A stretch of DNA of 21,778 nucleotides from IMG/VR virus record IMGVR_UViG_3300006929_000153, positions 1-21,778 of that record, one strand, 5' to 3'. Every line of letters begins with the position of its first letter. Position 1 is the first letter of the stretch. The notes under the pieces are model-generated. The model saw only the letters and a program-made list of their open reading frames with translations, did not search any database and was not told the DNA's origin. The translations under genes and the position numbers were made by a program. This stretch comes from a virus. Below, piece by piece: positions 823-13,287 of this stretch.

Positions 823-2286
823 ATGTCCTTAGAGTCTACCCCAGAAGAAACCCTTAAGAGCTACGCTAGGTTATTGAGCCGTGCGCAGGCTTTGGAACAT
901 GCCGATACTTGCCGCGAGAATTTTACCCATTTTGTACGTGCTATGTGGCCTGAGTTTATTGCGGGCAGGCACCATGGCATTATGGCCCAGAAGTTCGAAG
1001 CCGTTGCTAACGGCGACATTAAGCGCCTTATAGTTAATATGGCCCCGCGCCATACTAAGAGTGAATTTGCCAGTTACCTGTTGCCTGCGTGGTTAATGGG
1101 CCGCCGCCCTACGCTTAAGATTATGCAGACCACCCACACCGCTGAATTAGCTTACCGTTTTGGCCGCAAGGTGCGTAATTTAATGAACTCGCAGGAGTAT
1201 ATGCAGGTGTTTCAGGGGGTGCAGCTCCGCGCCGACAGCCAAGCCGCAGGCCGTTGGGAAACCACCAAGGGCGGTGAATACTTTGCTGCTGGCACGGGTG
1301 GTGCGGTAACGGGCCGTGGCGCAGACTTACTCATTATCGATGACCCCCACAGCGAGCAAGACGCCCTAAGCACTACTGCCCTTGAACACGCCTACGAATG
1401 GTACACCAGTGGCCCGCGCCAACGCCTGCAACCCGGAGGAGCCATAGTAGTAGTGATGACCCGCTGGGCCGAAAACGACTTAACCGGTAAGGTAATACGC
1501 CAGATGGCCCGTGACCCCTTGGCCGATAAATGGGAGGTAGTGGAATTCCCTGCCCTTATGCCCGAGACCGAAAACCCCCTATGGCCTGAGTACTGGTCAA
1601 AGGAAGACCTAATAGCCGTACGTGCCAGTTTGAGCGTAGGCAAATGGGAGGCCCAGTGGCAGCAGTCCCCCACCAGCGAAACCAGCGCAATACTCAAGCG
1701 CGACTGGTGGCAAAAGTGGCCCGATAAGGAGCTCCCCCACCTGCACTACGTAATGCAAAGCTACGACACCGCCTTTAGCAAAAAGGAACAAGCCGACTAC
1801 AGCGCAATAACCACATGGGGTGTTTTTTACCCCGAAAAAGGCAAGCCTGCTGCCCTTATACTGTGTGACGCCCGCCGTGGCCGCTGGGACTTTCCCGAAC
1901 TGCGCCGCATTACCATGGAGGAATACAACTACTGGGAACCCGAAACCGTTCTCATAGAAGCCAAAGCCAGTGGTATGCCCCTTACGCAGGAGTTACGCCG
2001 CATGGGTATACCGGTTACTAACTACACGCCCAGCCGCGGTAATGACAAAATAAGCCGCGTAAACAGTGTTGCCCCTATGTTTGAGAGCGGTATGGTGTAC
2101 GCCCCCGACACCCTATGGGCCGAAGAGGTCATAGAGGAGTGTGCGGCGTTTCCGGCTGGAGAACACGACGATTACCTCGACACCGTTGCCCAAGCCCTGC
2201 GCCGTTTTAGAGAAGGCGGCTTTATTGGCCACCCCGAAGACTACGAACCCCACGATACCCCACCCCGACAACGCGTGTATTATTAG
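823..2286 (+). CDS. terL: phage terminase large subunit
   Basis: The two-domain DNA packaging motor: an ATPase that pumps DNA into the prohead and a nuclease that cuts the concatemer. The 487 residues are a usual length. In order I see a Walker A-like APRHTKSE (74-81), Walker B LLIIDDP (169-175), a coupling motif VVVMTRW (209-215), then RNase H-type nuclease residues: Asp315 in SYDTAF, Glu379 in LIEAKASG, and the EHDDYLD cluster (447-453). The Walker A lacks the classical GxxGxGKS, as is usual in this phage terminase family. The ATG at 823 is the first possible start because an in-frame TAA lies immediately upstream; no good ribosome-binding site is visible. It opens the late gene run, 46 bases before the portal gene. 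Confidence 0.95.
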   Translation: MSLESTPEETLKSYARLLSRAQALEHADTCRENFTHFVRAMWPEFIAGRHHGIMAQKFEAVANGDIKRLIVNMAPRHTKSEFASYLLPAWLMGRRPTLKIMQTTHTAELAYRFGRKVRNLMNSQEYMQVFQGVQLRADSQAAGRWETTKGGEYFAAGTGGAVTGRGADLLIIDDPHSEQDALSTTALEHAYEWYTSGPRQRLQPGGAIVVVMTRWAENDLTGKVIRQMARDPLADKWEVVEFPALMPETENPLWPEYWSKEDLIAVRASLSVGKWEAQWQQSPTSETSAILKRDWWQKWPDKELPHLHYVMQSYDTAFSKKEQADYSAITTWGVFYPEKGKPAALILCDARRGRWDFPELRRITMEEYNYWEPETVLIEAKASGMPLTQELRRMGIPVTNYTPSRGNDKISRVNSVAPMFESGMVYAPDTLWAEEVIEECAAFPAGEHDDYLDTVAQALRRFREGGFIGHPEDYEPHDTPPRQRVYY

Positions 2287-2331
2287 TAAATTTATGTTAG
2301 TTTTGACGCCAACTTTGGGAGTACTTGTTGC

Positions 2332-4800
2332 ATGGCCCGTGATCCCCTGAGCACAAACAATATAGACAAAGCCTTGCTCCGCGCCCCTGCGGCTGCTAAC
2401 AGCCTAGAGGAGGCCGACATTCTGGAGCAAGAAAACGCCTTGTTTACCGACACCCCCGTGGATGTAGAAGTCACCCTAGACGATGACCCCACTGGTGGCG
2501 CAACCGTTGACTTTGGTGGTGCCCCCGCTATGGACCCCACCACGGCCCCGTTTGACAGCAACCTTGCCGACCTTTTAGACCCCGCCGAACTCAGTGCCAT
2601 TAGTATAAAGATTACCAGTGCTTACGAAGACGACAAAAACAGCCGCGAAGACTGGGAAGACACCTACAGCAAGGGCCTAGAACTCCTTGGCCTGCGTTAC
2701 GACGTGCGCACCGAACCCTTTACCGGCGCAACGGGCGTGGTACACCCCCTGCTTAACGAAGCCGTTACGCAGTTTCAGGCAGGAGCATATAAGGAGCTTA
2801 TTCCGGCCAACGGGCCGGTAAAAACCAAGGTAATGGGCGTAAGCACCCCTGATATGGAAGCCCGCGCCGACCGCGTAAAAGACTACATGAACTACCAACT
2901 CATGTACGAAATGGACGAATACGAACCCGAATTCGACCAAATGCTCTACTACTTGGGCTGTGCCGGTAGTGCGTTTAAAAAAGTCTACCAAGAGGAACAA
3001 CTTGGCCGTCCTGTGAGTAAGTTTGTACCCGCCGAGGACTTAGTGGTTCCTTACAGCGCCACGGATATTAAAACTTCCGAACGCGTTACCCATTTTATTA
3101 AAATGTCCAGCAACGAAGTACGTAAACTACAGGTTAGTGGATTTTACCGCGACGTAAACATTATGCCTATGGCCGCGGATGAACGGTCCGAGATTACCGA
3201 GGCTTATGACAAAATCGAAGGCACCAGTCCTACTTATGCCGAAAACGACCAAGAAATCACCTTACTAGAATGCCACTGCTACTTGGACCTAGAAACATTC
3301 CCCGACACTGACCCCACCGGCGACCCCACCGGCATAAAGCTACCTTACATAGTTACGGTGTGTAAAGACAATGGCGAAGTTCTCTCTTTGCGCCGCAACT
3401 ACATGGAACAAGACCCTAAGAAGGCAAAAATAGAATACTTTGTTCACTACAAGTTTAGTCCCGGAATGGGTTTTTACGGTTTTGGGCTAATACACCTGCT
3501 GGGGAACTTGTCGCGCACGGCCACCAGTACTTTACGCCAGTTGGTAGACGCCGGTACCCTGAGCAACTTACCCGCTGGTTTTAAAACACGCGGAATGCGC
3601 ATTGCCGATGATGACAGTGCCATTCAACCCGGAGAGTGGCGCGATGTAGACGTGCCCAGTAACAATTTACGAGAGTCACTACTACCCCTGCCTTATAAGG
3701 AACCCAGTACTACGCTGTTTAACTTAATGGGTTTTGTGGTTAGTGCGGCAGAAAAATTCGTAGGCACACAAGAAATAGGCGTTGCCGAAGGCCGTGGCGA
3801 CCTCCCCGTAGGCACTACCGTAGCTTTACTAGAAAGGGGCAGTAAGGTAATGTCGGCTGTGCATAAACGGTTACATGCCAGCCTGAAAAACGAGCTCAAA
3901 CTACTGGGCACTTTGTTTGGTGAACTAGCCACCCAGCAAATGCAGTACCCTTACACGGCACAGTCCTCGCAACCACAGGGGCCTAATCCCCAGTTACTTG
4001 CCGAGGACTTTGGCCCCGAAATAGACATACTCCCCGTAAGCGACCCAAACATCTTTAGCATGGCGCAACGGGTAATGCTGGCCCAAGAACAACTAACCAT
4101 GGCTACCAGTAACCCTGCCATACACAATATGTACGAAGCCTACCGCCGCGTATACTCCGCGCTGGGCATAGACAACATTGACGAAATTCTTAAACCCCAA
4201 CAAGACCCCAAGCCCGAGAACCCTGCCGTAGAAAACGGCCGAGCTCCCCTTGTGCTAACTGGTTCGGGTAATCCTTTAAAGGTTTTTGCCGAACAGGACC
4301 ATGACGCCCACATTGCTGCGCATACCGCTTTTATGGAAAGTAAAATCGTGCGTAGCCAAATGCCTGTTTACGCTTTGATGGTAGGCCATATATATGAGCA
4401 CTTTTCCTTCAAGGCCGAAGCCCAAGCCGCACAAGAGCTACAACAGCAGGGCATACAACCCAGCGAAGAAACGCGCCCCCAATACGAAGGCCGCGTTGCA
4501 CAGCTTATTGCTCAGTTTACCAAGCAGTTTAACGACGTTGAAGAACAGTTACAGGGTGGCACCGACGATGATGATCCGTTGGTATCGCTTAAAAACCGTG
4601 AGCTTGACATACGCGAAGGCGAACTCGCCCGAAAGGCCCAAGAGGACCGCAACCGCTTAAACTTTGATAAACAAAAGCAACAACAGGACCTTATGCTGGG
4701 TAGAGAGCGCATAGACTCTACCGAGGATATTGCCCAGTTACGAGCTAACATAGCCCTAGACCGCACACATAATGCTCCAAAACGTGGAGGAGGTGAATAA
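2332..4800 (+). CDS. phage portal protein
   Basis: Dodecameric portal at the capsid vertex through which DNA enters and leaves. The 822 residues are long, in the size range of P22-like and other short-tailed phage portals. The N-terminus (about 1-95) is acidic and Pro/Ala-rich. The conserved core begins near residue 100 (DWEDTYSKGLELLG, then TGATGVVHPLLNEAV and an ELIPANGPVKTKVMG stretch near 155-170). The C-terminus (about 750-815) is a charged Gln/Arg/Glu-rich coiled coil, fitting a barrel extension. The ATG at 2332 has GGAG at 2318-2321, ten bases upstream. Adjacent terL supports the call. The stop overlaps the next start (TAATG). Confidence 0.88.
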   Translation: MARDPLSTNNIDKALLRAPAAANSLEEADILEQENALFTDTPVDVEVTLDDDPTGGATVDFGGAPAMDPTTAPFDSNLADLLDPAELSAISIKITSAYEDDKNSREDWEDTYSKGLELLGLRYDVRTEPFTGATGVVHPLLNEAVTQFQAGAYKELIPANGPVKTKVMGVSTPDMEARADRVKDYMNYQLMYEMDEYEPEFDQMLYYLGCAGSAFKKVYQEEQLGRPVSKFVPAEDLVVPYSATDIKTSERVTHFIKMSSNEVRKLQVSGFYRDVNIMPMAADERSEITEAYDKIEGTSPTYAENDQEITLLECHCYLDLETFPDTDPTGDPTGIKLPYIVTVCKDNGEVLSLRRNYMEQDPKKAKIEYFVHYKFSPGMGFYGFGLIHLLGNLSRTATSTLRQLVDAGTLSNLPAGFKTRGMRIADDDSAIQPGEWRDVDVPSNNLRESLLPLPYKEPSTTLFNLMGFVVSAAEKFVGTQEIGVAEGRGDLPVGTTVALLERGSKVMSAVHKRLHASLKNELKLLGTLFGELATQQMQYPYTAQSSQPQGPNPQLLAEDFGPEIDILPVSDPNIFSMAQRVMLAQEQLTMATSNPAIHNMYEAYRRVYSALGIDNIDEILKPQQDPKPENPAVENGRAPLVLTGSGNPLKVFAEQDHDAHIAAHTAFMESKIVRSQMPVYALMVGHIYEHFSFKAEAQAAQELQQQGIQPSEETRPQYEGRVAQLIAQFTKQFNDVEEQLQGGTDDDDPLVSLKNRELDIREGELARKAQEDRNRLNFDKQKQQQDLMLGRERIDSTEDIAQLRANIALDRTHNAPKRGGGE

Positions 4801-5579
4801 TGGCTCTTCCCCCGCGTCCCGCCGACCCCGATATTAGAATAGGCAACTTTACTACCCAATACGATCTGTTGCCTGAGGACTATTCCAGCTGGGACCCCAT
4901 TAGTTTTGCTACTGCTAAACCCCCTAACCCCTACACCGAAGCCGCCACCACCGGAGGCCCCAGCGGTATGACCAGTGCTGCGGGCAATGCAGCCACCACG
5001 CCTACTGTGGCGTATGGTGCTCCAACCTTAGGAGTTACGGGCGGTATACCCATGGGGTTTGAAATACCCAAGGGCTTGATGGAACAGAACACTTTAAGAG
5101 TTAACACTGGCACTGTGGGAGGTGCCCCCGCCGGAGGCACTGTTACTTGGCGGGCTAGTGGTTATGGCGGTGCAGGCAGTGGCGATGAAGACCGCAAAGC
5201 GGCTTATCAGCGGGTATATAGTGCAAACCCAAACCCCACTCACGCTCAGACCGAAACCATTGCCGCTAATATAGAAAGAATTCAATCGGGCGCGGCTGAC
5301 CCTTTTTGGGGTAATGACCCCTTTATACAGTCTGCAATGATGGGAGATGTACCTCTTACTGCACAGGGGTTTACTACCTATGGAGAAACGCAACAACCAC
5401 AAGCGCAGCCACAGTCGGCTATTCCACAGTCGGTTTATCAAGAACCTATGGCTCCCGCTGCTCCTACTCCTGACCCTGTTCCCCCTGTTATGAAACCGAA
5501 TATGCCACGTCGTTCTGATTTCGATAGTCCTTATGAGTGGCGAATGGCACTTAACGACTGGTTCGCTATGTATGGTTAA
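4800..5579 (+). CDS. Pro/Ala/Gln/Thr-rich protein of unknown function, portal-adjacent
   Basis: 259 residues starting in a TAATG overlap with the portal stop, preceded by a strong GGAGGAGG (4788-4795). It has no signal peptide or membrane segment. The middle and C-terminal parts are low complexity (Gly/Thr-rich near 40-125, then a Gln/Pro/Ala-rich segment near 198-235), ending in a short more ordered motif (YEWRMALNDWF). I do not recognise the family. The tight coupling to the portal gene suggests a virion or head-assembly role, but that is inference only. Confidence 0.75.
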   Translation: MALPPRPADPDIRIGNFTTQYDLLPEDYSSWDPISFATAKPPNPYTEAATTGGPSGMTSAAGNAATTPTVAYGAPTLGVTGGIPMGFEIPKGLMEQNTLRVNTGTVGGAPAGGTVTWRASGYGGAGSGDEDRKAAYQRVYSANPNPTHAQTETIAANIERIQSGAADPFWGNDPFIQSAMMGDVPLTAQGFTTYGETQQPQAQPQSAIPQSVYQEPMAPAAPTPDPVPPVMKPNMPRRSDFDSPYEWRMALNDWFAMYG

Positions 5580-5599
5580 CACTTAAGAGGTAAATAGCT

Positions 5600-5782
5600 A
5601 TGGCTAAAAAAGCAGATAAAGTAGAGTCTGGAATGACTGTTTTTGCCGCTGCGGGGGAATACACGGTTCCTTACGCAGAGCAACAAGAGTCTAATGTAAA
5701 AGTAACTCCTGCGCCTAAAGGCGTTCAACAGGCAAAAGGCAAAGGTGCCGCTTTTGCAGGGGTAGGCTTTAAAGTACGTTAG
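5600..5782 (+). CDS. small basic hypothetical protein
   Basis: 60 residues, Lys- and Ala-rich (begins MAKKADKVESG and ends in a Gly/Phe-rich GVGFKVR). The start has AAGAGG at 5584-5589 about ten bases upstream. No domain is recognised. It sits in the tightly spaced run between the portal-linked protein and the membrane proteins, so it is likely co-expressed with them. Confidence 0.65.
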   Translation: MAKKADKVESGMTVFAAAGEYTVPYAEQQESNVKVTPAPKGVQQAKGKGAAFAGVGFKVR

Positions 5783-5790
5783 GCAAAACA

Positions 5791-6072
5791 ATGAGCGAGA
5801 TGCTTGCCTTAATTGCAGATGTAGGATTCCCTATTGCAATAGCGTTGATTGCAGGCTTTTTTATTTTCTTGACCATAAAGTACATTCTAGAAAGCGTGGT
5901 TAGTCAAGTAGATGGGCTTCACGGTATTGTGCAAGCCCTAGACAACCGCATAAAAACCATGAATCATGATATGATCCGTGTAGACGCTACCTTGTGTAGC
6001 GTAGTAGGCATACGCCCTGATCTAGAAAGACTTGCCCGTGCTAATGGTAAAGAAGATGCTCGGCGAGACTAA
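5791..6072 (+). CDS. small single-pass membrane protein with helical tail (holin-like?)
   Basis: 93 residues: a short N-terminus, one hydrophobic segment at about 11-32 (FPIAIALIAGFFIFLTI), then an amphipathic helical region and a charged C-terminus (GKEDARRD). This architecture resembles small BhlA/UviB-type holin-like proteins, and I recall similar proteins in uncultured marine phages. The family match is from memory. It is paralogous to the next gene (shared GFPI before the membrane segment and a D-x-IR pattern in the helix). The stop overlaps the next start (TAATG). A holin, antiholin or spanin-like role is plausible, given a clear holin at 12241. Confidence 0.75.
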   Translation: MSEMLALIADVGFPIAIALIAGFFIFLTIKYILESVVSQVDGLHGIVQALDNRIKTMNHDMIRVDATLCSVVGIRPDLERLARANGKEDARRD

Positions 6073-6314
6073 TGGGCATAGCCGAAGCAGTTGGCGAGTA
6101 CGGATTCCCTATAGTGGCAACCACCGGCTTGCTGTACATGATTCACTTTATTTGGAATTACATAACCAATAACATAAAGCGAAAACTAGCCGAAGCAAAC
6201 ACCACGCTTATTGCGCTAATAGACAGAGTTAGGATGTTAGATAACGATATAATAAGACTTCAACAAAAGTTAGACACCGTAATCGAGCTACGGGAGAGTG
6301 ACTATGAAGAGTAA
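6072..6314 (+). CDS. small single-pass membrane protein, paralogue of the preceding gene
   Basis: 80 residues with one N-terminal hydrophobic segment at about 12-31 (FPIVATTGLLYMIHFIW), then a heptad-like helical tail ending in acidic residues. It shares GFPI, an LxxRVRMLDNDIIRL-like helix and overall plan with the gene at 5791, so the two look like a tandem duplication. It begins in a TAATG overlap and its 3' end overlaps the start of csgF by 11 bases, which ties the curli-like genes to the phage operon by translational coupling. Function unknown; holin-like or a membrane accessory. Confidence 0.72.
   Translation: MGIAEAVGEYGFPIVATTGLLYMIHFIWNYITNNIKRKLAEANTTLIALIDRVRMLDNDIIRLQQKLDTVIELRESDYEE
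6292..6296 (+). promoter_or_regulatory. ribosome-binding site that sets the csgF start at 6304
   Basis: GGGAG at 6292-6296 lies seven bases before the ATG at 6304. A GTG at 6298 in the same frame would be only one base away, too close. The ATG at 6304 also gives a clean signal peptide. Confidence 0.7.
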
Positions 6315-6774
6315 TGTAGGTGCAGTAATTTTGGGTCTTTTTTGTTCTCAGGCAATGGCTACTGGGCTAACTTTTCAGTTCAAAAACCCCTCGTTTAACG
6401 GAGTGGGACAGTCGGCGCATTATCTCACTATAGATGAACAAGAACGTAGCCGAAAACAAGACATAAGAGAAGCCGCCGAGTCCCGTGCAAGCGAACTCTT
6501 ACGTGAACAAGAAAACACCACCCTTGCTAAGTTTGTGCGTAACCTTGAGAGCCGTATCTTTAGCCAGTTGTCTCGTGATTTAGCGGAATCGTTGTTTAAC
6601 TCTGAAACCGGAGGGTCAGGCGGGGTATTTGACCTCGAAGGCAATCAAATTAGCTTTATAAACACCGGAACAGAGATTGTTCTCCTAGTTACCGATATTG
6701 ATGGAGGAATAACTGAAATACGTATTCCTGTAGGTAGTTTCGGTATTTGCTCCACAGACGAGTGCGGTATCTAA
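6304..6774 (+). CDS. csgF: CsgF-like curli assembly factor
   Basis: 156 residues. A signal peptide (MKSNVGAVILGLFCSQAMA) is followed by mature TGLTFQFKNPSFNG, matching the signature N-terminus of E. coli CsgF (TMTFQFRNPNFGG). In the known E. coli complex this segment plugs the CsgG channel and forms its second constriction. The middle is a charged helix (about 44-100, with FVRNLESRIFSQL matching the CsgF helix). The end is a beta-rich part (GTEIVLLVTDIDGGITEIRI) like CsgF's VTD-T-x-I region. It is slightly longer than E. coli CsgF (138). Two extra cysteines (149, 154) lie near the C-terminus. The gene overlaps the membrane protein upstream and csgG downstream. Expected role: outer-membrane factor that couples secretion to curlin nucleation. 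Confidence 0.9.
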   Translation: MKSNVGAVILGLFCSQAMATGLTFQFKNPSFNGVGQSAHYLTIDEQERSRKQDIREAAESRASELLREQENTTLAKFVRNLESRIFSQLSRDLAESLFNSETGGSGGVFDLEGNQISFINTGTEIVLLVTDIDGGITEIRIPVGSFGICSTDECGI

Positions 6775-7607
6775 TTGTATGTTTTCTGGCTTTTGCCACT
6801 TGTGGCTGTGTGGCAGTTGGCCCTATTGAAGCGTGTCGTAATAGTACTTCGCGTATTGCAGACCCCGCTGATGTAGCCAATACCCGTTGCCCAGAAGGCC
6901 CCCGTATTGACCGTCCCACTTTACAAGACTTAGTGGAACTTTCCGCTCCTGCCCGCAAGGCAGTGGTGGCTGTTTATAGCTTTTTAGACTTAACCGGTCA
7001 GCGTAAGTCGGCTGATAACATGGCCCTGTTCAGCACAGCGGTAACTCAGGGAGCAGATAGCTTTTTAATCGAAGCTCTACAAAACGCGGGTGGTGGAACG
7101 TGGTTTACCGTGGCAGAACGAGGCATGTTAGACCATTTAACCAGAGAACGTCAACTAATTATATCTACCCGTAGTACTTACGATGGCGAAGGCGATAACC
7201 AGTTAAAACCTCTTTTATTTGCTGGTTTGCTAATGGAAGGAGGAATTATTTCCTACTCAACAAATACATTTACCGGCGGCGTTGGAGCACGTTACTTAGG
7301 TATTGGTACCTCTAGGCAACACCGACGAGACCAAGTCACGGTTTCGCTTAGGGCGGTGTTGGTACAAACCGGAGAGGTTTTGTTAAATGTATTAGCTAGT
7401 AAAACTATTTTTAGTGCTTCTACGGGAATAGACACTTTTAGATTTACCGAAAACGGTGTAGAACTCGTAGAACTAGAAACAGGGGTGGCAGTTAACGAGA
7501 CAGCGGGGTATGCTGTAAGGTCCGCTATAGAAGCTGCTGTTTATGAGCTTATAATGCAGGGGATAGAAAGAGATTTGTGGGACTATCAGTCTCCGGAGGA
7601 GGGGTAA
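6747..7607 (+). CDS. csgG: CsgG-like curli secretion pore lipoprotein
   Basis: 286 residues from the TTG at 6747; the GTG at 6762 is an equally plausible start, and neither has a clear ribosome-binding site. Known CsgG forms a nonameric outer-membrane channel that exports unfolded curlins. A lipoprotein signal ends at Gly20-Cys21. The sequence then follows CsgG throughout: AVYSFLDLTGQ (75-85; E. coli SVYNIQDETGQ), LFSTAVTQGAD (94-104), VAERGMLDHLTRERQLI (122-138), MEGGIISY (163-170), GGVGARYLGIG (177-187), TGEVLLNV (208-215), SKTIFS and RDLWD (275-279). These cover the periplasmic domain and both transmembrane hairpin regions, so it looks complete. The constriction-loop region differs from E. 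coli: Phe is kept in LFSTAV, but the Tyr and Asn partners are replaced and the loop is one residue longer. The 3' end of csgF overlaps its start. Confidence 0.95.
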   Translation: MLHRRVRYLIVCFLAFATCGCVAVGPIEACRNSTSRIADPADVANTRCPEGPRIDRPTLQDLVELSAPARKAVVAVYSFLDLTGQRKSADNMALFSTAVTQGADSFLIEALQNAGGGTWFTVAERGMLDHLTRERQLIISTRSTYDGEGDNQLKPLLFAGLLMEGGIISYSTNTFTGGVGARYLGIGTSRQHRRDQVTVSLRAVLVQTGEVLLNVLASKTIFSASTGIDTFRFTENGVELVELETGVAVNETAGYAVRSAIEAAVYELIMQGIERDLWDYQSPEEG

Positions 7608-7608
7608 A

Positions 7609-8328
7609 ATGCGATCTCTAATGATAAAATCTTGTTTAGTTTATGTGTTTTTATTATATTCATTGGCCTATTGTGTGTCTGTTCTTGCGGCCAACAACGA
7701 TATTTACTTAACTCAAGCTGGCGGCGGTAGCACCGCCCTCACGCTTAGTATAGACCAGATTGGGTCGAGCAACGTTGTTGGTACCAGTAGTGCTAGGGTG
7801 AGCTTATCGGGTACATCCATTACGGCTGATGTAGATCAGATAGGTGACAGCAACACTATTGCGATGACGGCGGCACAAGCTAATTCAGCTAATTTTACTT
7901 TAAAGTCTACTGGTGACAGCAATACTCAAACTCTGGCTTTAGGTGCTACAGGTGATGTACAAAACACAGATTTTGATTTGGAAGCTACCGGTGATAGTAA
8001 CGTGCTTGTTTACACACAAGGTAATACTGCAACAGCGACCGCTGCGAACGCAGACTTTAGTGTTACAGGGACTTCAAACAACATCAACGTAACTTGTAAC
8101 GTTGTGGGTTGTGTAAACGACTGGACCGTGGACGGGGATTCAAACGATATCGACACCACTCAAGTAAACAATGCCGACCATTCCATTAAAGCAAATATAA
8201 CGGGTAATGGTAATAACATCGACGTAGACCAAAGCAGTACTGGGGGTTCGGTTAAAAACATTTTAGACATAGTAGCTATTACGACCAATGGTGTTATTGA
8301 TGTAGATCAATGTACTTCTGGTTGCTAG
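7609..8328 (+). CDS. curlin-repeat amyloid protein 1 (CsgA/CsgB-like)
   Basis: 239 residues. The ATG at 7609 follows a very strong GGAGGAGGGG (7595-7604) just at the csgG stop. A signal peptide (about 1-27) is followed by seven degenerate curlin-type repeats of pattern hydrophobic-x-hydrophobic...G-[DST]-[SGN]-N-x-hydrophobic, for example SIDQIGSSNVV (47-57), DVDQIGDSNTI (74-84), KSTGDSNTQ, EATGDSNVL, VTGTSNNI, VDGDSNDI and ITGNGNNI (197-204), about 25 residues apart. This is the strand-loop-strand plan of the CsgA/CsgB beta-helix, rich in Asn, Asp, Thr and Ser. Four cysteines sit in two close pairs (163/168 and 235/239), unlike mature E. coli CsgA. Predicted to be exported through CsgG to form amyloid; whether it is the major fibre subunit or the nucleator is not decidable here. 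Confidence 0.87.
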   Translation: MRSLMIKSCLVYVFLLYSLAYCVSVLAANNDIYLTQAGGGSTALTLSIDQIGSSNVVGTSSARVSLSGTSITADVDQIGDSNTIAMTAAQANSANFTLKSTGDSNTQTLALGATGDVQNTDFDLEATGDSNVLVYTQGNTATATAANADFSVTGTSNNINVTCNVVGCVNDWTVDGDSNDIDTTQVNNADHSIKANITGNGNNIDVDQSSTGGSVKNILDIVAITTNGVIDVDQCTSGC

Positions 8329-9395
8329 TTTTTTTGCCCTTTGTGGCAAGTGCCCAAGTTGGGTCTATTTCTGAATTGAGAGGAATTGGCGAGGTCTTAC
8401 GCCAGAACACGGATGATTCCCTAGCAGCTGAGTTACAACTGGGTATTGCCAGTATGGATAACGTACGTACTGGGAACGGGCGTTTAGCTATTCAGTTTCT
8501 TGACGATAGCGTAGTACGACTAACCGAGCGTTCCAGTGTTGTAATAGACGAATACATTTTTGACCCCGATCCGTCTCAAAGCCGTTTAGCTCTTAACATG
8601 GCTAGTGGTACAGCCCGCTTTTTGACAGGCGCATTGGGACGTATTAACCGTGAGAACATTAGTATCCGTACTCCTACCGCTACTATTGCCATTCGTGGGA
8701 CAGACTTCACCACTACGGTGGATGAAATTGGTCGCAGTTTGGTGATTCTTCTCCCAGACGCCACGGGGGCTTCTAGTGGGGAAATAACCGTAACAACGCA
8801 AGCAGGTGTAGTGGTGATGAATGAACCGTTTCAAGCTACTATGGTTAGTGTGTCGGAGACACCACCTACCCCACCTGTTTTATTACAGGGCATGACACTG
8901 GGTTTTATAGATAATTTGCTTATTGTTAACCCTCCAGACGAAATTCAACAAGCCGTAGAGGAACAAGCCAGTAGTCCCAATAACATACTAGACGTAGATC
9001 TATTGGAAGAAACCGAACTAGATGAAAACGAATTGGATAAAGATGAGTTAGAAGATGAAATAGGTAGATTAGATGTGGACTTTTTAGATGTGGACTTCCT
9101 AACTGATCTGTTAGACGTAATAGAGGTAAGTGCTGCGGCTAAAGAAGAAAAAGGTGCGGAGTTAGACGGAGTAGAGTTAGTAGGAATTACTCCGGGATTT
9201 GACCCCCAGCTACAGATTTATTCTTTTGTAGAGGGCGAAAGACTTACGTTGTTTCGCCAAGTGGAAAACACTGTAGACTTAGAGCTAGAAAAAAGTGGGG
9301 CCTACAACGTAGACATTCTGACCGCGGGTGTAAAAATAGGTGTGGTAGTAAACGGTGGAGGTGAAAGTGCGATTACTATTGTTCAGTCTCCTTAG
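8310..9395 (+). CDS. secreted FecR-domain protein with acidic linker and curlin-like C-terminus
   Basis: 361 residues. The ATG at 8310 overlaps the curlin-1 3' end by 19 bases and gives a clean signal peptide (MYFWLLVFLPFVASA, then QVG). Residues about 45-170 match the FecR beta domain: NVRTGNGRLAIQFLDDS, LNMASGTARFLTGALG (95-110) and the hallmark IRTPTATIAIRGTDF (119-133). A very acidic linker (about 226-270) carries repeated LDVD/DELE-type words. The C-terminal ~45 residues contain two segments resembling curlin rungs (LELEKSGAYNVDIL at 324-337 and VVVNGGGESAITIV at 346-358). There is no cytoplasmic or transmembrane anti-sigma part, so this is not a classical FecR regulator. It is more likely an extracytoplasmic structural or sensory partner. 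The 3' end overlaps curlin 2. Confidence 0.83.
   Translation: MYFWLLVFLPFVASAQVGSISELRGIGEVLRQNTDDSLAAELQLGIASMDNVRTGNGRLAIQFLDDSVVRLTERSSVVIDEYIFDPDPSQSRLALNMASGTARFLTGALGRINRENISIRTPTATIAIRGTDFTTTVDEIGRSLVILLPDATGASSGEITVTTQAGVVVMNEPFQATMVSVSETPPTPPVLLQGMTLGFIDNLLIVNPPDEIQQAVEEQASSPNNILDVDLLEETELDENELDKDELEDEIGRLDVDFLDVDFLTDLLDVIEVSAAAKEEKGAELDGVELVGITPGFDPQLQIYSFVEGERLTLFRQVENTVDLELEKSGAYNVDILTAGVKIGVVVNGGGESAITIVQSP
9357..9361 (+). promoter_or_regulatory. ribosome-binding site that sets the curlin-2 start at 9367
   Basis: GGAGG at 9357-9361 is five bases before GTG 9367, which opens a textbook signal peptide. The earlier in-frame GTG codons at 9355 and 9361 overlap or precede this site and are less likely starts. 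Confidence 0.65.
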
Positions 9396-10152
9396 TTTGC
9401 CTGTTTTTGCAGCGGATAATTCCGTAGAGATAGATACTAAAGGGACAAACACCAACATTTATATTGAACAAATAGGAACCGGCAATACGGCGCGTGTCTG
9501 GTGTGGGCTATCAAATGGAACATACACAACGCATACCTGTAGTAGTGCTACCATCGATATTGACCAGAATGGTGACGATAATTTAGCTAAAACCTATAGC
9601 CAGTACACAAACCATACAGGGAATGAATATAAGATTACACAGACTGGAAACGACAACACAGGGTATATTGACGCGGATCAGGACTCAAATGAGATGACCG
9701 TTACCCAAACCGGTGACGATATGTATGGCGAAATTTATATGTCTGGCGATGACAACATCTATAAGGTATCCCAAACAGGTACCGGAGACCATTATGCAAA
9801 GATGTACGCCTTTGGAGATGACAGTACGTGGACAATTACTCAATCTGGTTCTGGAAGCCACAACGCCTATATTAAATCTTGCAACAACTGCAATAATAAT
9901 GATGCTACGATTACGCAATCAGGTAGCGGCGCAAAGGATGGCGACATTGAGTTCAAAAACAACCCTGCCGATAACTCAACGGTTAACCTGACGCAGTCAG
10001 GCAACGGCGCACACGTTGGGAACATACGAGTAGAACAGGGAAACTACACCGTAAATGCAACTCAAAACGGAGTAAGTGCCAAATCTTACACAGCGGTATT
10101 TAACTGCACTTCAAGCTGTAACAAAACCGTAACAATTAACCAATTTGATTAG
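9367..10152 (+). CDS. curlin-repeat amyloid protein 2 (CsgA/CsgB-like)
   Basis: 261 residues from GTG 9367. A signal peptide (MRLLLFSLLSLPVFA) is followed by ADNSVEID. About ten repeats carry the canonical curlin core [IVT]-x-Q-x-G-x-[GDN]: IEQIGTGN (33-40), IDQNGDDN (65-72), ITQTGNDN (90-97), VTQTGDD (112-118), VSQTGTG (134-140), ITQSGSGS (157-164), ITQSGSGA (182-189), LTQSGNGA (208-215), ATQNGVS and INQFD at the end. These are closer to classical CsgA/CsgB repeats than curlin 1. Cysteine pairs (46/58, 172/175, 247/251) sit in the loops between rungs. There is a 29-base overlap with the FecR gene. Expected: secreted amyloid subunit, forming a heteromeric fibre with curlin 1 or nucleating it. 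Confidence 0.9.
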   Translation: MRLLLFSLLSLPVFAADNSVEIDTKGTNTNIYIEQIGTGNTARVWCGLSNGTYTTHTCSSATIDIDQNGDDNLAKTYSQYTNHTGNEYKITQTGNDNTGYIDADQDSNEMTVTQTGDDMYGEIYMSGDDNIYKVSQTGTGDHYAKMYAFGDDSTWTITQSGSGSHNAYIKSCNNCNNNDATITQSGSGAKDGDIEFKNNPADNSTVNLTQSGNGAHVGNIRVEQGNYTVNATQNGVSAKSYTAVFNCTSSCNKTVTINQFD

Positions 10153-10156
10153 AAAA

Positions 10157-10453
10157 ATGGCTAAGAAAAAAGAAAAATCTATAAGACGCACCACTAAAGG
10201 GAAAGCTGCTAACTATCGTCCTACTAAGAAAGGGGCGGGAATGACTAAAAAAGGTGTTAAGGCTTATAGAAAGAAAAACCCCGGAAGTAAGTTAAAAACA
10301 GCGGTTACAGGTAAGGTTAAAAAGGGCAGTAAAGCCGCTAAAAGACGTAAGTCTTATTGCGCAAGGTCAGCAGGACAAATGAAAAAATTTCCTAAAGCTG
10401 CAAAAAACCCTAATTCAAGGCTACGGCAAGCAAGAAAAAGATGGAAGTGCTAA
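10157..10453 (+). CDS. small very basic protein, conserved phage family (DUF6321-like)
   Basis: 98 residues from ATG 10157. Extremely Lys/Arg-rich with a block KGAGMTKKGVKAYRKKNPGS, then KLKTAVTGKVKKGSKAAKRR and SYCARSAGQMKKFP, ending RQARKRWKC. I recognise this pattern as a small conserved phage family, which I recall as DUF6321; that name is from memory and unchecked. The block with two conserved cysteines and a Trp near the end is typical. It has no signal peptide, so it acts in the cytoplasm. Nucleic-acid binding or DNA condensation is a fair guess from composition only. It lies five bases after curlin 2 and before the cyclase, a phage-type gene sandwiched in the accessory cassette. A TTG at 10145 would add four residues and is less likely. 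Confidence 0.75.
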   Translation: MAKKKEKSIRRTTKGKAANYRPTKKGAGMTKKGVKAYRKKNPGSKLKTAVTGKVKKGSKAAKRRKSYCARSAGQMKKFPKAAKNPNSRLRQARKRWKC

Positions 10454-10457
10454 AACC

Positions 10458-12218
10458 TTGAAACTAGGTACAAAAGTCGGACTACTCACCGTTGTAGCTT
10501 TAGCTTTGCCTTTGTTGTTAAACTGGTCTGCATTAGAGGTGCTGCGACTTAAAACATTTGATGCGTTTATTACTCAACCCACTCCATCTGGGCATTTTGT
10601 AGTTCTTGATATAACTGAAGAAGATATAGCAAGAGAAGGAGGTTGGCCTTTCCCCCGTCAAACCTTAGCTACTTTACAAAATGAGCTTATGGCTCGAGGT
10701 GCTCTGGGGGTGGGTTGGGTGGTTTTATTTCCTCAACCGGATCGTTTTGGTGGAGATGAAGATTTTGCCACAAGCCTAACTCAGGGGATAAATGTATTAG
10801 CTATGCCTGAGTTTGCTAATGCGGAATATCCTCCACCACATGGAACTGTTATTCTTGGCGAAGATCCTGTTAACTATAGCCCTGCAAAGGGGTTTATTTT
10901 AAACATAGAGCAACTAACTGAGGTTGCTTTACAGGGGGCTGTTTCTGCTCCTACTGATGTAGATAACCTTATAAGGCAAATTCCCCTTATTTCTCGAGCT
11001 CCTGATGGTTGGGTTGCTTCTTTTGCCACACAAGTATTAAAAGCTCTTACGGGGGAGGGAACGTACCAAATACGAACTAATGAAGGAGGTATTGAAAGCC
11101 TTAGAATACCGGCACTTGGGGTAATTCCTACAGATAGGTTTGGCCGAAAGTGGGTCTCTTGGGTGGATACCCCTACGGTTTCGTACCAAGACCCACAGGT
11201 AGAAGGTAAGTTTGTTTTTGTGGGAACAAGTGCTGCAGGAATAATGCCACAGTTGGCTACCCCTGCGGGTTTGTTAAATCCCCACTACATACAAGCTGCT
11301 TTGGCAGAGAGCTTATTGCTACCAAACAGTCCTAGTATTCCTGCAAACCGGTTATTGTATGAATTAGGGCTTCTTTTATTGGTATGTACAATTACAATAA
11401 CTCTTCTACAAAGATGTAATGTAACTTGGTCTGCTGTAAGTGTAGGAGGAATGTTAGCGGGAGTATATGGTCTAGGAGTCTATCTTATTCAACAAAATCA
11501 ATTAGTTGATGTTACTTGGCCCGCTATTTGTTTATTGTTACTATCTGGGGAACAGTTCTGGTTTAACTTTAGGGAACAGTATTTACTACGCCAGCAGATT
11601 AAAAAACAGTTTGAACACTACTTAGACCCAAGACAAATAAAACGCTTGCAAGATAACCCCGACCTGTTGACCCTAGGTGGTGAAACCCGCTACGCAACCT
11701 TTTTGTTCACTGATCTGAGGGGGTTTACTTCTATGTCGGAAAAGCTGTCTCCGGAGGAAGTTACCGAAATAATGAACAAAACTTTGTCTGTACAGGTAGA
11801 AACCATACAAAAACACGGGGGCATGGTAGATAAGTTCATTGGTGACGCCTGTATGGCAATTTTTTCGGCCCCACTAGACCTACCTGATCACGAAGACGCT
11901 GCTATAAAGGCCGCAATTGAAATACAGGAAAAGATAAAAGTCCTTAACGAAGTCTTACCTGTACCTGTTGCTATCGGGGTGGGGGTTAATTCAGGAAAAG
12001 CAGTGATAGGGAACATGGGTTCCGCTTCTAGGTTCGACTATTCTGCGATCGGAGACCCCGTAAATACCGCAGCCAGACTGGAATCATCGACCAAACAGGT
12101 AGGAAAGGAGATATTAGTTGGGTCTTCTACTGCAAAAAAATGTTCTTTTGTGTTAAAGTCGTTGGAACCCATAGAAGTGAAAGGAAAAAAGGACCCGTTA
12201 GAGGTTTTTACCGTTTGA
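10458..12218 (+). CDS. CHASE2-domain membrane adenylate cyclase (class III)
   Basis: 586 residues from TTG 10458 with GGAAG ten bases upstream. The order is an N-terminal TM (about 7-24), a periplasmic CHASE2 sensor domain (about 30-290; its typical VGTSAAGIMPQLATPAG at 255-271), three closely spaced TM helices (about 300-317, 325-343, 352-366), a short linker, and a class III cyclase domain (about 405-586). Catalytic residues are complete: metal Asp419 (FTDLRGFT) and Asp463 (FIGD), Lys459 and Asp527 (FDYSAIGD) for adenine selection, and Asn536 and Arg540 (NTAARLES) for the transition state. Lys plus Asp predicts ATP, giving cAMP, and an active homodimer. The N-terminal half looks lower in GC than the head genes, by eye. 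Bacterial CHASE2 cyclases sense unknown envelope signals. It is unusual to find one between curli genes and a holin in a phage. Confidence 0.92.
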   Translation: MKLGTKVGLLTVVALALPLLLNWSALEVLRLKTFDAFITQPTPSGHFVVLDITEEDIAREGGWPFPRQTLATLQNELMARGALGVGWVVLFPQPDRFGGDEDFATSLTQGINVLAMPEFANAEYPPPHGTVILGEDPVNYSPAKGFILNIEQLTEVALQGAVSAPTDVDNLIRQIPLISRAPDGWVASFATQVLKALTGEGTYQIRTNEGGIESLRIPALGVIPTDRFGRKWVSWVDTPTVSYQDPQVEGKFVFVGTSAAGIMPQLATPAGLLNPHYIQAALAESLLLPNSPSIPANRLLYELGLLLLVCTITITLLQRCNVTWSAVSVGGMLAGVYGLGVYLIQQNQLVDVTWPAICLLLLSGEQFWFNFREQYLLRQQIKKQFEHYLDPRQIKRLQDNPDLLTLGGETRYATFLFTDLRGFTSMSEKLSPEEVTEIMNKTLSVQVETIQKHGGMVDKFIGDACMAIFSAPLDLPDHEDAAIKAAIEIQEKIKVLNEVLPVPVAIGVGVNSGKAVIGNMGSASRFDYSAIGDPVNTAARLESSTKQVGKEILVGSSTAKKCSFVLKSLEPIEVKGKKDPLEVFTV

Positions 12219-12629: not shown

Positions 12630-12821
12630 GTGACTGAGCTTTACATTTACGAAAAAATACGAAAGAATATACGCGAACGGAGAGAAATGATACGGCAAAC
12701 CCTTTGCGAAGGGCCTGTACCTGATTTCACCACATTCAAGGAACTTCGAGCTAGGCTCGTAGAACTTGCAGCAATAGAACAGGAAATAGCATCCCTGCTG
12801 GAGAAAGTAACAGATGACTGA
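12630..12821 (+). CDS. small helical protein of unknown function
   Basis: 63 residues from GTG 12630, two bases after the holin stop, overlapping the next gene by eight bases. Predominantly helical and charged (YEKIRKNIRERREMIRQTL, then ELRARLVELAAIEQEI), with no signal or membrane segment. I recall similar short proteins following the holin in marine phages. Function unknown. The tight packing argues that it is real. Confidence 0.65.
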   Translation: MTELYIYEKIRKNIRERREMIRQTLCEGPVPDFTTFKELRARLVELAAIEQEIASLLEKVTDD

Positions 12822-13287
12822 ACCAACACTACTGGTACCTGATTACTATAAAGAACCTACCCCTAAAAAACCTCCTGAAAAAGATTCACTAGATTCGGCT
12901 TACGTAGAAAAAGAGGATCTGTACTTAGATCCCAGTAAGCTATCTTCTAAATCAATTGACCGTTTACCTCAACCTACTGGCTGGCGAATTTTGCTTTTGC
13001 CCTATCAGGGCAGAAAAGTCAGTGATGGTGGAATTCTTATGCCCGATGCTGTGATCCAAACCGAAGCCCTAGCCACTGTATGTGGTTATGTGCTGAGATT
13101 AGGACCAGATGCGTATGAGGATCGTGAAAAATATCCCCATGGCCCTTGGTGTGCTGAAAAAGAGTGGGTTATTTTTGGAAGATACGCGGGAAGCCGATTT
13201 AAGATAGAAGGCGGCGAAGTTCGTTTGCTCAATGATGACGAAATACTTGCTCGCATTAACGATCCTAGCGACATTTTGCATATTTAA
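12814..13287 (+). CDS. GroES-like co-chaperonin (Cpn10 fold)
   Basis: 157 residues starting inside the previous gene's end. After a Pro/Lys-rich N-terminal arm of about 50 residues, the core resembles GroES: PTGWRILLLPYQG (strand opening the fold), a mobile-loop-like KVSDGGILMPD (about 69-79), TVCGYVLRLGPDAY (matching the GroES VVAVGPG turn), WVIFGRYAGSRFKI (matching VLF..Y.G..), and ending LLNDDEILARI (matching the GroES end LI..DDILAVI). Phage GroES substitutes such as T4 gp31 help GroEL fold the major capsid protein. Its place just upstream of scaffold and MCP fits that role. The long N-terminal extension is unlike cellular GroES (about 97 residues). Confidence 0.8.
   Translation: MTEPTLLVPDYYKEPTPKKPPEKDSLDSAYVEKEDLYLDPSKLSSKSIDRLPQPTGWRILLLPYQGRKVSDGGILMPDAVIQTEALATVCGYVLRLGPDAYEDREKYPHGPWCAEKEWVIFGRYAGSRFKIEGGEVRLLNDDEILARINDPSDILHI

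Follow-up and report, generated by a model that had tools for sequence, protein, structure and literature searches.

A gene for a CHASE2 receptor cyclase, predicted to make cAMP, closes the curli cassette of an HTVC023P-type podovirus

Curli (type VIII secretion, T8SS) genes in phages have been described before. In 2022, a curli module with FecR and 'AC' genes was reported in HTVC023P-type and myovirus Pelagiphages; its curli proteins and FecR are expressed and occurred at each of the 65 GOV2.0 stations (PMC9599517). The same study termed FecR an iron-dependent regulator, called the one or two genes before CsgF histidine kinase, and stated that AC and FecR are absent from bacterial curli operons. 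CsgG and CsgF in phages are also discussed in PMC7029224 and PMC9004378, the latter reporting that the cultured phage Melnitz showed no clumping and suggesting that CsgG acts as a pinholin-like pore. CHASE2 goes unmentioned in all three papers, and no other paper on phage CHASE2 or phage adenylate cyclases was found in the open-licence literature. The cyclase gene is annotated in the cultured phages HTVC008M (KC465899) and Melnitz (MZ577097), which are myophages carrying the cassette. The cassette and its AC gene are already known, and the window analysed here (the whole 21,778-nucleotide stretch of virus record IMGVR_UViG_3300006929_000153) adds one more carrier. Points that we did not find in the literature searched are the CHASE2 receptor, its linkage to FecR, the near-invariant catalytic positions, the holin-like character of the 'histidine kinases', and a corresponding operon in Caulobacteraceae.

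The phage is a marine podovirus of the HTVC023P type, with 58-61% identity in the terminase and 69-73% in the capsid protein to its relatives HTVC023P, HTVC027P and DSL-LC04. On either side of the cassette are terminase, portal, scaffold and capsid genes, and three cassette sites are seen in related phages: the portal/capsid interval, ahead of the terminase, and behind the capsid gene. The preliminary description of this DNA had raised the possibility that the segment is host DNA misassembled into the contig. This is excluded by a 62-kb contig that is 99.1% identical to the window and has the same layout, by a 7.9-kb contig that is 100% identical across positions 2255-10157, and by the recurrence of the layout at many syntenic loci of related phages. 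Ahead of the scaffold and capsid genes lies a gene for a GroES-like co-chaperonin (12814-13287), which is conserved in related phages.

The cassette begins at position 5791, has all of its genes on the plus strand, and ends with the cyclase. Its first two genes encode small membrane proteins that are paralogues by alignment, one of 93 aa with one transmembrane (TM) helix and a coiled coil (5791-6072; phrog_18771, E 1.5e-29) and one of 80 aa (6072-6314; phrog_18771, E 1.9e-25). The curli assembly factor CsgF (6298-6774; Pfam PF10614, E 5.3e-17) is followed by the outer-membrane curli secretion pore CsgG (6747-7607; PF03783, E 1.4e-47), which carries the lipoprotein signal ATCGC and matches the NCBIfam CsgG model at E 1.4e-44, under the equivalog cut-off. 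Curlin-like repeat protein 1 (7609-8328) has a signal peptide and repeated GDSN...Q units that are visible directly; by itself it has no Pfam match, and it is homologous to the curlins of related loci and of two Caulobacteraceae metagenome-assembled genomes (MAGs; L084 and L087, discussed below). A periplasmic FecR-domain protein (8310-9395; PF04773 in residues 50-144, E 4e-12), curlin repeat protein 2 (9355-10152; PF07012, E 9.3e-14; NCBIfam CsgA, E 4.1e-10) and a small basic protein (10145-10453; DUF6321, PF19846, E 1.1e-11) precede the cyclase. Most of the DUF6321 gene has been lost from the 99.1%-identical contig (L002), where the cyclase is intact, and in a related phage (L003) the gene is placed before the cassette; at its site between curlin 2 and the cyclase, it is an insert that can be dispensed with. 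The composition is that of a phage T8SS/curli module, with CsgF, CsgG and a curlin, then FecR, a second curlin and AC, and from this gene content the cassette is predicted to secrete a surface amyloid. Scans of the cassette for sigma-70-like promoters and terminators gave no more than expected by chance.

The two genes before CsgF do not encode a histidine kinase, a candidate that we rejected for 5791-6314 because the products are only 80-93 aa long and have no kinase features. Across relatives these proteins measure 80-116 aa, with one TM helix and a coiled coil; a kinase domain is found in none of the 25 scanned, and 18 of the 25 match holin phrog_4898, weakly. Compared by position and gene number alone, the two genes match the published module, so that the 'histidine kinase' label, rather than their membership, appears to be wrong. 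In some myophage loci (L444, L474, L469), the small proteins are encoded elsewhere, either downstream of the cyclase or in the CsgF/CsgG interval.

The cyclase ORF (10458-12218, plus strand; exact placement by ORF check) has a TTG start and encodes 586 aa. The preliminary description had read it as a four-helix membrane protein joining CHASE2 to a class III cyclase domain, and profile searches and structure prediction bear this out. Pfam places CHASE2 at residues 14-310 (E 1.9e-31) and Guanylate_cyc at residues 413-580 (E 1.6e-20), and both domains are present in 38/38 relatives scanned. In the AlphaFold model (mean pLDDT 89.6) the cyclase fold is present, and long helices at residues 2-20, 298-319, 322-345 and 353-385 flank the CHASE2 region, giving the CHASE2 receptor layout of one N-terminal TM helix before the domain and three further TM helices after it. 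The cyclase part of the model matches the structures of CyaC, CyaB, OaPAC and bPAC, and the CHASE2 part has no sequence match among solved structures. As the whole protein matches the phage family phrog_35576 (E 2e-113), phages bearing such a protein are already within the PHROG library. Comparison with L003 indicates purifying selection (dN 0.133, dS 0.798, dN/dS about 0.17). In alignments of relatives, the catalytic domain and its preceding linker are more strictly conserved than the TM regions, and the CHASE2 part retains many invariant residues. We describe the protein as a phage-encoded CHASE2 receptor cyclase that is predicted to make cAMP.

An alignment of 142 distinct proteins allowed us to examine the proposed active site residue by residue. 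The metal-binding Asp419 and Asp463, as well as Lys459, are each present in 142/142, as is Arg540 of the transition-state pair, while Asn536 of that pair is found in 141. All five had been named in the preliminary description, which also paired Lys459 with Asp527 for adenine selection; here the alignment corrects it. Asp527 (Asn536 minus 9) is conserved, yet it lies outside the adenine pair, and the second adenine position is Ser529 (Asn536 minus 7), occupied by Ser in 102 proteins, Thr in 39 and Asp in 1. The register of the pair was set by CyaB 3r5g RMDYTIIGREVN and OaPAC KRDYTILGDAVN. With the two metal Asp, the Asn/Arg residues, and Lys459 together with Ser or Thr at 529 in 141/142, the enzyme has the pattern of a class III adenylate cyclase of the Lys459/Ser529 type, and production of cAMP from ATP is predicted. 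The Melnitz cyclase (L083, 11917-13968) has altered catalytic positions (Ser at 527, Asp at 529 and Ser at 536), which makes activity doubtful in that cultured phage.

The FecR protein of the window consists of a signal peptide, a FecR domain, an acidic linker and a C-terminal beta domain, with no anti-sigma domain, and FecR is the sole Pfam family common to 36 relatives. A role as an iron-citrate regulator was rejected, as the N-terminal cytoplasmic anti-sigma domain and the TM segment are both missing; the signal peptide in place of an anti-sigma domain leaves the published iron-regulator reading unsupported. In the PupR/PupB pair, the FecR-type domain of PupR binds to the signalling domain of PupB, an outer-membrane transporter. 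In structure comparison, the FecR fold matches the periplasmic signalling domain of PupR (6ovk and 4m0h); the model of FecR is of low overall confidence (pLDDT 66.5). The C-terminus (window 9347-9395) forms a conserved curlin-like strand, NGGxxSxIxIxQ, that almost every phage copy shares and that the two bacterial copies (L084, L087) have in a slightly shortened form; it is missing from the curli-free bacterial FecRs examined. It is present in 56/61 distinct FecRs versus 3/691 other ORF ends, a descriptive count given that the motif was picked after viewing the tails and that the FecRs are related. This strand hints at contact with curlin. Docking as a free strand is disfavored, since the tail is the last strand of the folded C-terminal beta domain in the model and Pfam finds no Curlin_rpt in it.

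Second-messenger receptor enzymes had been called very unusual in phage genomes. This holds only for isolates, where a survey gave full-length cyclase matches in 6 of 50,697 phage records, representing two phage types, but not for marine viral contigs: one scan gave 491 relatives of the window cyclase, and the HTVC008M version has at least 585; the AC gene itself was published in 2022. FecR lies beside the cyclase (within 3.5 kb) in 82 of the 84 viral loci with at least 3.5 kb upstream. For loci with 6.5 kb upstream, the cyclase is accompanied by CsgG, CsgF and curlin in 47/49 and by the small membrane proteins in 46/49. Anchoring on CsgG instead, by alignment scans (a single-sequence CsgG scan gave too few loci), we found FecR at 54/54 loci and the cyclase at 50/54, never without FecR. 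Four loci (L403, L405, L416, L420) have the curli cassette and FecR with no cyclase after FecR and nothing similar in its place, which suggests that FecR probably has a role independent of the cyclase. At two loci (L012, L013) the cyclase gene is encoded on the other strand and converges with FecR; in L012, CsgG and CsgF share the cyclase's strand.

The closest bacterial cyclases, far ahead of others, belong to the two Caulobacteraceae MAGs (36% identical, E 2e-108). In both, genes for CsgF-CsgG-curlin-curlin-FecR-CHASE2-AC run in a single direction (L084, CANGEH010000001, 5950-12007; L087, CANGCO010000005, 5987-12007), and the flanks are ordinary bacterial chromosome that differs between the two. 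These operons contradict the statement placing FecR and AC outside bacterial curli operons (PMC9599517). Bacterial curli operons with FecR and AC are nevertheless rare, and neither gene occurs at any of 18 further CsgF loci from Alphaproteobacteria, of which four are truncated. Quick trees of CsgG and AC agree in grouping podophages, myophages and MAGs apart from other sampled bacteria (99 and 100), and leave the order among the podophage, myophage and Caulobacteraceae branches without resolution. We read the module as a bacterial-type operon that phages carry rather than one that they invented. Among bacterial CHASE2-ACs without curli genes, 13/20 have a FecR gene within 7 kb, versus 0/18 of the other CsgF loci, and Burkholderia contaminans has a LysM-FecR and CHASE2-kinase operon tied to biofilm (PMC5192318). 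Together these suggest that FecR and CHASE2 are likely a general sensory pair.

The curli/FecR operon context moves the likely role of the cyclase from a free-standing envelope sensor to a part of an amyloid-secretion module. On balance we favor the hypothesis that the cyclase is the signalling output of a phage-carried curli operon, with FecR acting through CHASE2 to raise cAMP during export. Curlin subunits would exit through the CsgG/CsgF pore, and the periplasmic FecR could monitor the pore, the curlins or the envelope, by analogy with PupR/PupB-type FecR domains. FecR would then act upon the CHASE2 domain, the dimeric cyclase would produce cAMP, and cAMP, keeping pace with fibre export, may shift host transcription, for example via a CRP-type receptor. 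The hypothesis draws on the near-constant association of the cyclase with FecR and the curli genes, the invariant active site under purifying selection, the shared gene set of the Caulobacteraceae MAGs with its agreeing CsgG and AC trees, the FecR and CHASE2 pairs of other bacteria, and the PupR-like fold of FecR. Against it stand the four CsgG and FecR loci without a cyclase, the altered catalytic residues of Melnitz and its lack of clumping (PMC9004378), and the low confidence of the FecR model. No cyclic-nucleotide-binding protein is encoded in the 62-kb sister contig, which is possibly incomplete, and a host receptor must therefore be assumed. The complete circuit, where FecR tracks amyloid as it is exported through CsgG, possibly via its curlin-like strand (..NGGGESAITIVQ), and cAMP from the CHASE2 cyclase retunes the infected host, is a more tentative proposal. 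If true, the phage would carry a transmembrane second-messenger system that is coupled to the secretion of amyloid.

Other explanations for the cyclase have to be weighed against this hypothesis. In late infection, constitutive cAMP could serve only to reprogram the host's metabolism or transcription, with the curli neighbourhood simply inherited and CHASE2 sensing unused. Such a role would agree with the stricter conservation of the catalytic domain and linker over the TM regions, with the missing phage-encoded receptor in the 62-kb relative, and with inheritance of the operon as a unit, but we regard it as unlikely given the many invariant CHASE2 residues and the retention of FecR with the cyclase at nearly all loci. 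Still less probable is a cassette that serves lysis timing or pore formation, with CsgG as the pinholin-like pore proposed for Melnitz (PMC9004378) acting together with the holin-like proteins and the cyclase reporting envelope damage. Here the weak holin matches of the two small proteins, the GTA-type holin (Pfam) directly downstream of the cassette in the window, and the lack of clumping in Melnitz (PMC9004378) are set against a neighbouring holin detected at only 3 of the loci scanned, other cassette sites in related phages, and curlin genes, superfluous for a bare pore, in 47/49 full-length loci. Interference with nucleotide-signalling defence such as Pycsar, a speculative alternative in the preliminary description, is very improbable, and identity with a Pycsar anti-phage cyclase, which would be a pyrimidine cyclase encoded beside a cyclic-nucleotide effector, was rejected: the similarity to Pycsar cyclases (best E 4.5e-30) is a generic one of the catalytic domain, confined to the common cyclase core, Lys459 with Ser/Thr529 is the adenylate cyclase pattern, and the neighbours are constant curli genes with no cyclic-nucleotide effector among them.

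For curli operons in phages that are very abundant in the ocean, FecR-to-CHASE2 signalling, suggested by the pairing of the two and by the matching gene set in bacterial chromosomes, gives a concrete and testable hypothesis, that curli export changes cAMP in infected cells. Two published statements are called into question, namely the 'histidine kinase' label and the placement of FecR and AC outside bacterial curli operons.

Compared with known systems, the window is closest to the published Pelagiphage T8SS/curli module, sharing its genes, their order and the HTVC023P-type lineage, with two cultured myophages as further carriers; it differs in the basic-protein insert before the cyclase. The Caulobacteraceae operon has the same gene set in a single direction, whereas it is without the small holin-like proteins, places both curlins before FecR, and has bacterial flanks. 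The bacterial FecR and CHASE2 units (Acidovorax, other genomes and Burkholderia contaminans) are without curli genes, their FecRs are different and often very long, and the Burkholderia output is a kinase, yet as in the phage an extracytoplasmic FecR is encoded beside a CHASE2 receptor. Lastly, CyaB (3r5g), OaPAC (4yus) and CyaC (1wc1), class III enzymes of the Lys/Thr type, carry other sensor domains, and the phage cyclase has Ser rather than Thr at the second adenine position, while the catalytic fold and residues are alike.
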